This document shows positions 19,040-23,345 of a stretch of 30,288 bases of DNA, piece by piece. Made by a program: the position numbers and the translations under genes. Within the stretch, counting starts at the first letter, position 1. Each line of letters begins with the position of its first letter. The notes beneath the pieces are model-generated. The model was given only the letters and a program-made list of their open reading frames with translations, was not told the DNA's origin and ran no database searches. Location: IMG/VR virus record IMGVR_UViG_3300028557_000138, positions 1-30,288 of that record, one strand, 5' to 3'. The stretch is from a virus.

Positions 19040-20506
19040 TCACCATCGATTGACAACCGGCAGCGGTTTGAAGCTGGCGGCCTTGTTGGCCGGTAGCCGC
19101 TGCACCAGGTTGATGGCGTCGAACATGGGGTCGAGCTGGTCGTCGTGTGCACCAGACGGGAAAGCGGCCACCTCGGCCAGGAAATCGGACAGCCAGGGCG
19201 CGTCGTGCGGCAGCAGGACATTGCCCGACTCGATAAACGGGGCTGCGTCGTAACCTCGACTGATCTTGTCCTTGTTGCGCTGCACGGCCACCACCGGGAT
19301 GCCCTCGCGCCGGAAGGTCTGGATCAGGCCGGTGCCAGAAACCTTGTCTTCCACGTACATGCCGCGCATGGCAGCGCCTTGGGCCACGGGCCGCTGGTCG
19401 TTTAGGTGCTTGAGCCAGAAGGCCCTGGCCTGCACCAGCAGCTCAGGGGCCTCCCACTTGCCGCGCACCTGGTCGAGCTTGACCGCCTGGCCAATGCTTG
19501 AGCATGCCCAACACTGCAGCACCGTCCAGTCGTTGTGGTCGGCAGTCTTTTGGGCCGTGTCCACCGTCAGGAAGCGGAACTCAAGCTGCGGGATGCTTGA
19601 CCAGAACTTGAACCAGTCGGTATTGATGATGCCGCCGCCTCGGGGTGCTGGCCGTTGTTGCAGCTGTCCGGCTGTGCCGTAGGTTCCCAGGGTTTGCTCC
19701 AACTCGGTGACCTGGGCTTCACCAAAGCGCTCGGGGAACATCAGCTCGCCTTCCTTGGTGCGCGGGTCAGTCCAGCCGATGCTGGTGGTGCAGCGGAAGG
19801 CAGGCTCAAAGCGCATCGGGATGCACAGGTGCGTATAAGGCAGACCCATCTCCTTGATGACGCCGGAAATGTCTTTCTCGTTCAGGCGTTGCATGATTAC
19901 AACGATAGCCGACTTGTCCGAGTTGACGCGGGTCGGCAGGGTCTCGGTGAAGGCAATGCGTGCGGCCTCCAGCTTGGCCGCGCTGTTGGCGTTGTCGGCG
20001 CTGATTGGGTCGTCCAGTATGACACGGTCGCCACGCACGCCGGTCATGCTGGTGAAAGCTCGGGCCTGCCGGATGCCTTTGCGGGTATTCCCGAACTCTC
20101 GCTTTCCGTCCAGGTCGGCCAGGAGGTCAAGCGGCCAGAGCTTCTGGAACCACTCGGACTTGATCAGGTCACGGCAGCGTCGGCTGTCTCGGATGGCCAA
20201 CTGCTCCTCGTGGGCCGTACCCACAAAGCGCATCTCAGGCAGGCCAACTGGCCCCCATTCCCAGGCTGGCCAGATCACGCCGGTCAGCAGGGACTTCATA
20301 GAGCCAGGCGGCACGTTCATCAGGAGGCGGGTGATTTCGCCCTTGGTCACGGCTTCCAGGTGCAGGCAGATGGCGTCCAGCGCCCAACCCCACTTCAGTT
20401 GCGCAGCCGGTTCAAGCACGCGCCAGGCACGCTTGGCAAACTCGGCCAGGCTGCGCTTGCACAGTTCGCGCTCGATGGCCAGAAGGTCAGCTTGCGTCAG
20501 TTGCAT
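19040..20506 (-). CDS. Terminase large subunit (packaging ATPase and nuclease)
   Basis: The protein has 488 residues from the ATG at 20506 (an in-frame TTG five codons earlier is less likely). The ATPase domain has Walker A PPGSMKS near residues 66-72 and Walker B VILDD near 162-166. A linker with YGTAGQLQQRPAP, a fixed mark of this family, leads to an RNase H-like nuclease. Its acidic residues are at VDTAQ (about 316), VEDKVSG (about 386) and GAHDDQLD (455-456). Both domains are complete. The enzyme cuts concatemers and pumps DNA through the portal. The start overlaps the end of the inserted endonuclease gene by 20 nt, so its translation now depends on that gene's end. Confidence 0.93.
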   Translation of the reverse strand: MQLTQADLLAIERELCKRSLAEFAKRAWRVLEPAAQLKWGWALDAICLHLEAVTKGEITRLLMNVPPGSMKSLLTGVIWPAWEWGPVGLPEMRFVGTAHEEQLAIRDSRRCRDLIKSEWFQKLWPLDLLADLDGKREFGNTRKGIRQARAFTSMTGVRGDRVILDDPISADNANSAAKLEAARIAFTETLPTRVNSDKSAIVVIMQRLNEKDISGVIKEMGLPYTHLCIPMRFEPAFRCTTSIGWTDPRTKEGELMFPERFGEAQVTELEQTLGTYGTAGQLQQRPAPRGGGIINTDWFKFWSSIPQLEFRFLTVDTAQKTADHNDWTVLQCWACSSIGQAVKLDQVRGKWEAPELLVQARAFWLKHLNDQRPVAQGAAMRGMYVEDKVSGTGLIQTFRREGIPVVAVQRNKDKISRGYDAAPFIESGNVLLPHDAPWLSDFLAEVAAFPSGAHDDQLDPMFDAINLVQRLPANKAASFKPLPVVNRW

Positions 20507-21056
20507 TTTTGCAGCTCTCAAAGTGGTAACGCTTCATGATCGGAACACCACCAATCAGCAAACAGTGTGGGCATTGGATTTTTGGTTTTGGTTTACCGGA
20601 CATGGTCTCGCTGATCTTTTTTCTGGTGTTTGAATCTCTTGGTTTCCCGGCCATGTGTTTGTTGCCTATTTTTTTGGCACTCAACTTTTCTTTGGTTTCA
20701 TGGCTGAAAACTTTTCCGATGTGTGAAATAGAAAGTTTTTTTCTGGTTTCTTCGGTTGGGACATAACCAGAACATCCTTCTCCGCCATCAGTCATGTTGC
20801 AAAGCCGAATGCCAATGGCACGAAGCTGATCGATTCGTTCAGCCTCAGCAAGAAAAGCAAGTTCCTCTGTGACGTTTTGAATCGTCATGCGCACAGAAAA
20901 ACCACCGGATTTCGCAACAATGCTTTTCCAATGTTTGCTTCTTTTGCCGGTAACGTAAGCGCGTTTTTTGCAGCCTTTGCCAACGTAAAAAACATTTCCA
21001 GTGTCATTGCGGATGTGCTCATAAACGTAAAACATTTTTTCTGGAACCGGTGTCAT
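20487..21056 (-). CDS. GIY-YIG homing endonuclease with NUMOD3 motifs
   Basis: This is a 189-residue protein. The N-terminus has the GIY-YIG-type pair FYVYEH (residues 9-14) and VFYVGKG (22-28), then a helix with R75 and a Glu-rich stretch. NUMOD3-type DNA-binding repeats follow: TEETRKKLSISHIGK (101-115), SHETKEKLSAKKIGNK and NTRKKISETMSGKP. It ends with a C2H2-like finger CPHC-x16-CKN. This matches the free-standing endonucleases of T4-like and other phages. It lies exactly between the terminase genes, is visibly richer in A/T with T-runs, and has no counterpart in the P22 order. It is therefore a probable recent insertion that spreads by cutting unoccupied phage genomes. Confidence 0.88.
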   Translation of the reverse strand: MTPVPEKMFYVYEHIRNDTGNVFYVGKGCKKRAYVTGKRSKHWKSIVAKSGGFSVRMTIQNVTEELAFLAEAERIDQLRAIGIRLCNMTDGGEGCSGYVPTEETRKKLSISHIGKVFSHETKEKLSAKKIGNKHMAGKPRDSNTRKKISETMSGKPKPKIQCPHCLLIGGVPIMKRYHFESCKNATDAS

Positions 21057-21059
21057 TGC

Positions 21060-21542
21060 TTACTCGCTACCAGTTGCATCTTTTGCGGCCATGATCTGCG
21101 CTAGCACATCGGTGCCAAGTTGGGAAACGTCCAGGGTGGCCACGGCAATCGGTGCGCCGTTGGCTCCGGTGTGCTCCAGCTGCCTGGGCGGTTCTTTCCA
21201 GCCCATCTGGCACTTCGACCACCAAATCTGCGCGGTCGTGTCGCCTGCCATGGCTTTCTGGAAGATGCCCTTGCCGATCTGAGCGTTGGCCTTGGCCTTG
21301 CCGTTCACCAGTTCGGTGGCGAACTTGTCGCGCAGCGTGTCGATGCAAATGCCTTCTCGAATCAGGGCAGCGATCTGCTCAAACGGCACGCCGTAACCCG
21401 ACATTGCCTCCACCTGCTTGCGCTCGGCATCGGTCGGCTCAAAGGGTTTGCGGCCAGCGCCAGGACGTGCGCCGCCGTTCTTTTTGGGTTGAACTGCCTC
21501 TTTTTTAGGCAGTCGGGTGGATTTTTCAGGTGTTTTTGCCAT
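21060..21542 (-). CDS. Terminase small subunit
   Basis: The protein has 160 residues and starts at 21542, overlapping the preceding gene by 17 nt. The N-terminal tail is basic with an AT-hook-like GGARPGAGRKPF. A helix-turn-helix-like segment follows: MSGYGVPFEQIAALIREGICIDTLRDKF. Then comes a helical core with GKGIFQKAMAGDTTAQIWW, a block frequent in small terminase subunits. The C-terminus is Ala-rich. It recognises phage DNA and activates the large subunit. The neighbour downstream (terminase large) confirms the identification even though an endonuclease has been inserted between them. Confidence 0.85.
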   Translation of the reverse strand: MAKTPEKSTRLPKKEAVQPKKNGGARPGAGRKPFEPTDAERKQVEAMSGYGVPFEQIAALIREGICIDTLRDKFATELVNGKAKANAQIGKGIFQKAMAGDTTAQIWWSKCQMGWKEPPRQLEHTGANGAPIAVATLDVSQLGTDVLAQIMAAKDATGSE

Positions 21543-22782
21543 TTGTAACCTCCGCGAAAGGTTCGCCAGTTTCTGCGTGAGTTGCTATTTTGCCTGTGAA
21601 ATCCTGCCAGCGCTTCACAATCACATCGCAATACTTTGGATCAAGCTCCATGATTCGAGCGACGCGCCCGTTCTTCTCGGCTGCGATCAGGGTGGTGCCA
21701 GAGCCTCCAAAGCTGTCCAGGACTTGGTCGCCGCCCTTGGTGTTGTTCAGGAGCTGGTACTCGAACAGGGCCACCGGCTTCATGGTCGGGTGCTCACCGT
21801 TCTTTGCTGGACGGTCAAACTCCAAGATGGTGGTTTGCTTTCGGTCTGCTGCCCAAAGGTGGCCTGCTCCCTCTTTCCAGCCGTACAGGCAAGGCTCATG
21901 CTTCCAGTGGTAATCCTGGCGTCCCATCACAATGCTGGACTTCTTCCATATCAAGCACTGTCGCACAGCCCAGCCAGCGTCCTTGGCCGCGCCTCGGAAG
22001 TTGTAGCCCTCGGAGTCTGCGTGCCAGATGTAGAACACAGCGCCAGGCTTCATGACTGTGTCGGCTGCGGTGTAAGCATCGCGCAAGAACTGTCGAAAAT
22101 CCTCGTCTGGCATTTTGTCGTTCATGATCTTGAGGCCGTTTTTACGCTCTGGATCGCCATGATTTCCGCCCTGCACAGCTACGTTGTACGGTGGGTCGGT
22201 CAGCCACATGTCCACCAGCTGGCCGTCGGTGAGCTTTTCCAGGTCGCTGACGCTTGTGCTGTCGCCACACAGGAGGCGGTGCTTACCCATCACCCAAATG
22301 TCACCGGGCACGGTGCGCGGATGTTCGGGCAGCGGTGGTGCATCGTCAGGATCGGTCAGTCCTTCAGTTCCAACGGGCGCCAGCAGCTCCTTGATCTCGT
22401 CCAGGTCGAAGCCGGTCAGCTCCAGGTCAAAGCCAAGCTCCTGCAGGTCGGCAAACTCAACCTTCAGCATTTCGGTGTCCCATCCTGAGTTCAGCGCCAG
22501 CCGGTTGTCGGCAATCACATAAGCGCGTTTTTGCGCGTCTGTCAAGTGGTCGAGTCGGATGCACGGCACGTCGGTCAGGCCCAACTTGCGTGCAGCGAGC
22601 ACTCGGCCATGCCCGGCAATGATTCCCCCCCCCCCGTCAATCAGCACTGGATTGGTGAATCCGAATTCCTTGATGGATGCAGCGATCTGGGCCACCTGCG
22701 CGTCGCTGTGGGTGCGACTGTTGCGTATATATGGAACGAGCGCATCAATATGGATTGCCTCAAGTTTGTCTGGCAGTTTCAT
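21526..22782 (-). CDS. ParB-like domain fused to DNA N6-adenine/N4-cytosine methyltransferase
   Basis: This 418-residue protein's ATG at 22782 overlaps the NinG stop (ATGA). Residues about 8-95 form a ParB/sulfiredoxin-type domain: YIRNSRTHSDAQVAQIAASI, then IIAGHGRVLAARKLG, ending YVIADNRLALNSGW. The methyltransferase follows with TDPPYN (DPPY at 196-199) first and the S-adenosylmethionine site DSFGGSGTTLIAAE (FGGSGTT at 358-364) last, which is the beta-class order. HPTMKPVALFEYQLL lies between. It should methylate DNA, perhaps to protect the phage from host restriction. Residues 50-53 are four glycines encoded by an 11-G run (22625-22635), a possible on/off switch. Confidence 0.9.
   Translation of the reverse strand: MKLPDKLEAIHIDALVPYIRNSRTHSDAQVAQIAASIKEFGFTNPVLIDGGGGIIAGHGRVLAARKLGLTDVPCIRLDHLTDAQKRAYVIADNRLALNSGWDTEMLKVEFADLQELGFDLELTGFDLDEIKELLAPVGTEGLTDPDDAPPLPEHPRTVPGDIWVMGKHRLLCGDSTSVSDLEKLTDGQLVDMWLTDPPYNVAVQGGNHGDPERKNGLKIMNDKMPDEDFRQFLRDAYTAADTVMKPGAVFYIWHADSEGYNFRGAAKDAGWAVRQCLIWKKSSIVMGRQDYHWKHEPCLYGWKEGAGHLWAADRKQTTILEFDRPAKNGEHPTMKPVALFEYQLLNNTKGGDQVLDSFGGSGTTLIAAEKNGRVARIMELDPKYCDVIVKRWQDFTGKIATHAETGEPFAEVTNGKNT
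22625..22635. repeat. 11-base G tract inside the methyltransferase gene
   Basis: Eleven consecutive C on the plus strand, G on the coding strand, encode the glycines at residues 50-53 within the ParB-like domain. It is the longest G/C homopolymer noticed in the window. A one-base change would shift the frame well before the methyltransferase motifs. Homopolymers of this length slip readily during replication and in sequencing. Confidence 0.9.
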
Positions 22783-23345
22783 GCTTTTGCTTTCTTGGTT
22801 TTGAGCGCTTCCGCCCGGTAGTATTTGGCCAGTTCGATCAGGCCTTCGTGAGCGTATTTGCGCACCGTGTTGTCGCTTTCGATGCTTTCGACGGCTTGCA
22901 GGCCGATCCGTTCGACCAGGCGCTTGCGGTATTCCACATGGTTTCCGGCCAAATAGTTGTTGCAGTGCTTGCATTGGCCGTGGCAGTTTTCCTCCACAAA
23001 CCTCATGTTCGGTGCGCTGCCGACTGATCGGTAGTGCCCTGCATCGTAGGTGTTCGGCTCGTTGCTCAGTGGCGTACCGCAGGAAATGCAGGTTTTACCC
23101 GCGTCCCTTGCCCGGATGAATGCGTTGAAGGCCGTCTGCGCTTTCTTGGTCAGCTGCGGCTTGGTTTGCATCGCGTCCAGCTTCTGGCGGGTCTCCTTGC
23201 GGTCTTTGGCCTGCTCCTTGGCCTGGGCCTTTTCCGTTGCTTTCCTGGCCAACACAAGGGCGCACGGTGGGCTGCACACCGTTTGCAGCGGCCTGGTCTT
23301 GGTGTAAGCGCACTGGCAGACTTTGCACTTGGCTGGTTTGGTCAT
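22779..23345 (-). CDS. ninG: NinG/Rap-like recombination nuclease
   Basis: This 188-residue protein starts at 23345. The N-terminus has a zinc-ribbon pair C7-x2-C10 (KCKVCQCAY) and a second pair near residues 24-28 (VCSPPC). A charged helix follows, then the core with CISCGTPLS, YDAGHYRSVGS, NMRFVEENCHGQCKHCNNYLAGN and YRKRLVERIG. These are fixed marks of the lambda NinG/Rap family, which resolves recombination intermediates. NinB is encoded two genes upstream, as in lambda's nin region. The start overlaps the stop that the preceding gene would have if its frameshift were corrected. Confidence 0.92.
   Translation of the reverse strand: MTKPAKCKVCQCAYTKTRPLQTVCSPPCALVLARKATEKAQAKEQAKDRKETRQKLDAMQTKPQLTKKAQTAFNAFIRARDAGKTCISCGTPLSNEPNTYDAGHYRSVGSAPNMRFVEENCHGQCKHCNNYLAGNHVEYRKRLVERIGLQAVESIESDNTVRKYAHEGLIELAKYYRAEALKTKKAKA

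Follow-up and report, generated by a model that had tools for sequence, protein, structure and literature searches.

A poly-G tract in an orphan DNA methyltransferase gene of a P22-like phage as a likely phase-variation switch

The DNA considered here (hereafter the window, i.e., the whole stretch of 30,288 bp that was analyzed) encodes P22-like portal, terminase, NinG, Erf, YqaJ and SSB proteins and thus belongs to a tailed, P22-like environmental phage. A search for similar DNA from isolated phages gave no close relative, its best near match being 75% identical, and neither tRNA nor Rfam family was found in the window. The locus of interest is an orphan methyltransferase gene overlapping its neighbors on both sides, with the following features (in-frame alleles being designated ON and out-of-frame alleles OFF):

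21060..21542, minus strand: putative terminase small subunit gene, overlapping the end of the methyltransferase gene (PHROG 309, E=1.5e-09)
21526..22782, minus strand: orphan ParB-like / N6_N4 DNA methyltransferase gene, 418 codons, intact (ON) (ORF, Pfam, PHROG, PADLOC)
21616..22215, minus strand: N6_N4_Mtase catalytic domain (Pfam), the middle part being the recognition region, swapped in some tract-bearing relatives
21691..21711, minus strand: FGGSGTT SAM-binding motif (motif I), residues 358-364 (sequence)
22186..22197, minus strand: DPPY catalytic motif (motif IV), residues 196-199 (sequence)
22457..22459, minus strand: stop reached after gain of one G, with a 55-codon tail (translation of the shifted frame)
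22516..22767, minus strand: ParB_N-like N-terminal domain, containing the tract (Pfam ParB_N, E=2.2e-05; PHROG ParB-like families)
22575..22577, minus strand: stop reached after loss of one G, with a 15-codon tail (translation of the shifted frame)
22625..22635, minus strand: G11 tract, the proposed switch, in glycine codons 50-53 (sequence; AlphaFold2 secondary structure)
22779..23345, minus strand: upstream NinG recombination endonuclease gene, its end overlapping the methyltransferase start (Pfam NinG, E=1e-52)

With NinG and the putative terminase small subunit as neighbors, no restriction endonuclease adjoins the methyltransferase in the Pfam and PHROG annotations, and the adjacent res endonuclease gene that would mark a Type III restriction-modification (mod/res) system is absent. 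Because the putative terminase small subunit gene overlaps the methyltransferase end, polar effects of an OFF state on packaging are conceivable, a possibility inferred from gene overlap only. Further along, a homing-endonuclease-like gene (PHROG 314, window 20487-21056) separates the terminase small subunit gene from that of the large subunit, in a stretch missing from several aligned relatives.

The tract appears as C11 on the plus strand at 22625-22635, the G residues being on the coding (minus) strand in the context ATT GAC GGG GGG GGG GGA ATC ATT (I D G G G G I I). It is in frame, with residues numbered from the ATG at 22782. The 30,288 bp contain no second mononucleotide run above 7, and the other G or C runs reach 6 at most. 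What the initial annotation had read from sequence alone, namely eleven G encoding glycines 50-53, DPPY at 196 and FGGSGTT at 358, held in all respects. Its claim that gain or loss of one G shifts the frame and removes the methyltransferase held as well, the stops of both shifted frames (15 or 55 codons past the tract) preceding DPPY. In the AlphaFold2 model (block pLDDT about 90), glycines 50-53 form a turn between predicted beta strands 46-48 and 53-56; since the glycines sit in a turn between strands, an extra one is predicted to be tolerated. One relative (L085) has five glycines at the tract and is still in frame.

Regarding the protein family, the gene product matches Pfam N6_N4_Mtase (E=1.2e-22; 81.4 bits for a cut-off of 26.7), the PHROG 498 DNA methyltransferase family (E=9.5e-175) and the PADLOC MTase_II model (473 bits), the PHROG 498 and PADLOC Type II methyltransferase models spanning nearly the whole protein length. 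Pfam ParB_N remains just below its gathering score (24.8 versus 26.3 bits), with PHROG ParB-like families matching strongly (E to 4e-56). In the structure alignment, from which three rows whose tblastn ranges overran the stop were left out, F358, G360, S361 and G362 are invariant, and the fold of the protein matches CcrM (E=2e-13). By domain, motifs and fold, this protein is an N6/N4 DNA methyltransferase, assigned to the beta class because motif IV precedes motif I; that it methylates a DNA target is inferred from these features alone. The beta-class enzymes CcrM, M.BceJIV and M1.HpyAVI share the catalytic domain fold and the motifs, although the match is restricted to the catalytic part of the window protein. 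In contrast, phage ParB-methyltransferases (PHROG 498, PADLOC PDLC03229) are of the same family over nearly the full length but, unlike the window gene, mostly lack the tract, 169 relatives having an ordinary in-frame spacer at this position.

Relatives carrying a tract at the window's site (site 1) were sought by several routes. A protein-based search of viral contigs gave 80 loci, most of them run-free at the site and four with G10, G12, G13 and G14. A pattern scan of viral contigs for at least 8 Gs before (I/V)(I/V)AGHG codons gave 48 contigs, of which 47 were genuine, L108 being a chance match that was discarded; a scan from the upstream side of the tract added no contigs. The 47 viral loci have G8-G14 at the same codons (with one G19 at a contig end), and, window included, 28 are in frame (ON), 18 are out of frame (OFF) and 2 are cut by contig ends. 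L104 and L111, which reach contig ends, and L004, disordered beside the tract, were excluded from the ON/OFF counts, and these counts are of contigs, not of independent switches. In the 169 relatives without tract, the spacer between the flanking codons is 12 nt in 168 and 9 nt in one, hence never out of frame (0/169), versus 10 nt (1), 11 nt (12), 12 nt (26), 13 nt (5) and 15 nt (1) in the tract loci, all three reading frames being represented. The excess of out-of-frame spacers over tract-free relatives is marked (Fisher p=2.6e-14), a value to be taken as a guide only, related contigs not being fully independent.

The closest pairs are the most informative. L119 (G13) and L126 (G11) can be compared over 4,048 bp with 2 mismatches, their sole gap being 2 nt at the tract; L115 (G11, OFF) and L127 (G12, ON) show 17 mismatches over 6,871 bp, again with a sole gap at the tract. 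These pairs differing at the tract are 99.7-99.9% identical. Three more pairs, >99.7% identical and with both tracts complete, have equal lengths, so that 2 of five near-identical pairs differ at the tract, with no indel in the remaining roughly 24 kb. On the tree, at least 12 ON/OFF changes are required.

In L002 and L207 the tract is broken by a T (GCGGGTGGGGG), which, as inferred from sequence alone, would keep the gene permanently ON. The contigs L104, L111 and L278 start or stop inside or beside a tract, as would be expected if mixed lengths break assembly. Every site-1 tract locus is an assembled metagenome contig: a pattern scan of an 84,980-species genome collection found no site-1 tract in methyltransferases, hence no isolate of the exact type, and its seven matches (L130-L136) were rejected as not being this gene, judging by their flanking reading frames.

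OFF copies do not decay. Downstream of the tract, dN/dS relative to the nearest relative is 0.063 for OFF copies and 0.057 for ON copies, which shows that the OFF copies are under purifying selection with an intact downstream frame. This may reflect reversible switching, and sequencing error would fit too; error is nevertheless disfavored because of the enrichment of runs in this gene and of the pair L119/L126 with its 2-nt difference. Indeed, among 156 related loci chosen regardless of runs, 12 of 15 G/C runs of at least 9 fall in the ParB-methyltransferase gene, all with G on the coding strand (p=9e-8), this gene accounting for 0.20 of 1.24 Mb (16%). The 12 runs are located in the ParB turn, just before DPPY and near HRLMCGDS. 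Judging by motifs in the translations, one of the other three is in what we take to be a cytosine-C5-type methyltransferase ORF, and another in an ORF taken to be PAPS-reductase-like. Moreover, as GGG represents only 68 of 1,471 glycine codons (4.6%) in the rest of the tract-bearing genes, the tract is unlikely to have arisen by chance from codon usage.

Tracts are also present at other positions of this gene, mainly just before DPPY, where runs occur in at least 120 contigs of related phages. Of 115 distinct cases, all but 23 have an assigned frame, with 61 ON and 31 OFF alleles, and close pairs again differ in length. A G8 at this position can come from ordinary Met-Gly-Gly codons, and it is the longer runs that carry weight. 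Before-DPPY tracts of G8-G18 are found in L049, L053, L057, L172, L175, L191 and L228 as well as in about 115 loci within L249-L364. In L196, L227 and L365 a tract occupies a third position, before HRLMCGDS; the first two have G10, which is out of frame. Outside this gene, ORFs resembling cytosine-C5 methyltransferases contain G15 in L057 (at 2475) and G11 in L126 (at 12291), on contigs that also carry a ParB-methyltransferase tract; a G9 lies in a PAPS-reductase-like ORF of L213 (at 556), and a G8 in a second methyltransferase-like ORF of L084 (minus strand, 4954). Ten other phage records of the family lack a run at site 1, and before DPPY they show just two runs, both G8. A G8 precedes DPPY in L367 and L370, which are a fecal phage and the Streptococcus equinus prophage Javan213. 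The latter host is cultured, so switching could be tested there.

In light of these data, the inference of on/off switching made in the initial annotation is supported by length variation in relatives, with switching within a clone and mixed methylation of progeny still inferred. The constant 11-G tract in relatives that it had named as a refutation was looked for and not met, lengths going from 8 to 14 in all three frames and differing even between near-identical contigs; the other, an isolated sequencing artefact, is unlikely. Its description of such a tract as unusual in phage was an understatement: members of this phage gene family carry poly-G tracts in several places.

Behind the tract, the central part of the gene is exchanged in some tract-bearing relatives. 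Compared with the window, L106, L112, L098, L120 and L129 keep 84-100% of residues from the tract through the ParB part, 6-33% in the central catalytic/recognition region and 46-57% in the next block, and become window-like again at the C-terminus. At the DNA level, identity between L086 and L098 along the gene is 85-95%, then about 35-50%, then 96-100%, and between L088 and L106 it drops from about 95% to about 35-40%. As the 5' half is kept, the center diverged, and the DPPY and F(G/C)GSGS motifs are retained in the exchanged proteins, different recognition regions are found behind one shared switch; that they have different targets is inferred.

Several other explanations have to be weighed. 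Length differences could arise from faulty sequencing or assembly of G runs, with a true tract that is always in frame. Poly-G is indeed error-prone, contigs L104 and L111 break off at the tract or within it, the sequence next to it in L004 is disordered, and intact downstream frames in OFF copies are also expected if the OFF call is wrong. However, this would require false calls in about 40% of consensus contigs at G8-G13, tract lengths for which Illumina produces few indel errors, homopolymer indels being misplaced chiefly beyond 14 bp (PMC8808543). Furthermore, the tracts of L119 and L126 are 2 nt apart in length with just 2 mismatches across 4 kb, and errors would not create the enrichment of 12 runs out of 15 in this gene. 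We hence consider this explanation very unlikely. Equally hard to sustain is a recoding site, at which slippage of RNA polymerase or ribosome would supply a constant fraction of complete protein from DNA of any tract length. Homopolymers can trigger transcriptional slippage, and such a mechanism would keep OFF alleles under selection; yet a programmed site has a fixed phase whereas offsets 0, +1, -1 and -2 are all found here, nearly all relatives have an ordinary in-frame spacer, and elongation transcriptional slippage in E. coli has been described for A or T runs, according to a title in the reference list of PMC3711429.

Two further alternatives are less easily dismissed but remain unlikely. 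The tract could be a neutral by-product of glycine-rich turns, slipping without function, with OFF copies as passing loss-of-function mutants. The turn is glycine-rich in many run-free relatives, so a run may start by chance, and the tract is interrupted in two relatives (L002, L207). Against this, GGG is rare among glycine codons (just 4.6%), even strongly diverged methyltransferases have kept tracts, which also recur elsewhere in the gene, G runs cluster in the methyltransferase gene rather than in its neighbors, and no relaxed selection is seen in OFF lineages. Alternatively, the switch could be a phage phasevarion regulating phage or host genes instead of conferring protection from restriction. 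Orphan methyltransferases can regulate genes, the phage-encoded orphan methyltransferase PamA altering surface traits of S. aureus (PMC13076061), and the window gene has no neighboring restriction endonuclease; replacement of the recognition region with retention of the 5' half, however, suits evasion of varied host systems better than fixed-site regulation.

The reading we favor is thus that a phage orphan DNA methyltransferase is phase-variable by slipped-strand mispairing. The tract, its length variation, the ON and OFF alleles, the selected downstream frames, the recurrence elsewhere and the exchange of recognition regions are directly supported; slippage, reversibility in a clone, methylation and benefit are inferred, making the whole likely. 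During replication, the G11 tract would gain or lose Gs by mispairing: with 12 nt of tract codons, the full-length protein would be made (ON); with one base fewer or more, translation would stop 15 or 55 codons past the tract without reaching the catalytic domain (OFF), until a further slip brought the gene back to ON. The beta-turn would accept an extra glycine, so that the frame alone would matter. The phage population would contain both modified and unmodified genomes, the benefit being, as a hypothesis, bet-hedging between hosts cutting unmodified DNA and hosts cutting or responding to modified DNA. The evidence fulfills three of the features that define a phase-variable gene with a simple repeat (an in-frame repeat, a length differing in near-identical genomes and a selected OFF frame), reversible switching with a change of phenotype in one clone being inferred. 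It lacks read-level data: mixed lengths within one sample have not been seen, and the window copy is known solely as G11.

Known bacterial systems offer close parallels. Type III mod methyltransferases (phasevarions; Haemophilus, Neisseria, Helicobacter) likewise carry a simple repeat in the methyltransferase ORF and are ON or OFF by frame, and mod alleles have conserved ends and an exchangeable recognition region, like the window gene family. The window system differs from them in being phage-borne, in its ParB-like fusion, in the absence of an adjacent restriction partner and in its short mononucleotide G run. The Type IIG enzyme Cj0031 of Campylobacter jejuni is phase-variable through a poly-G in its methyltransferase ORF, like the window gene (title cited in PMC13335696), but it is a bacterial restriction-modification enzyme whereas the window gene encodes a phage orphan methyltransferase. 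In the open-access literature searched, we found no earlier report of poly-G phase-variable phage methyltransferases, although a paper elsewhere is possible; two gut-phage methylome papers mention neither phase variation nor homopolymers.

A bolder reading, towards which we lean without being able to press it, is that poly-G contingency loci in DNA-modification genes form a large class in environmental and gut phages, occupying several positions of ParB-methyltransferases and also other methyltransferases. With recognition regions swapped behind a common switch, phages would randomize whether and where their own DNA is marked. The signature is easily found, with more than 100 viral contigs having a run just before DPPY in addition to the 47 at the window's site. 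While phase variation of methyltransferases is classic in bacteria, here a virus would apply it to its own genome. If true, one burst would contain modified and unmodified particles, which would account for uneven plating on restricting hosts as well as for mixed signals of methylation, and bet-hedging between restriction systems and modification-dependent defences would become directly testable.
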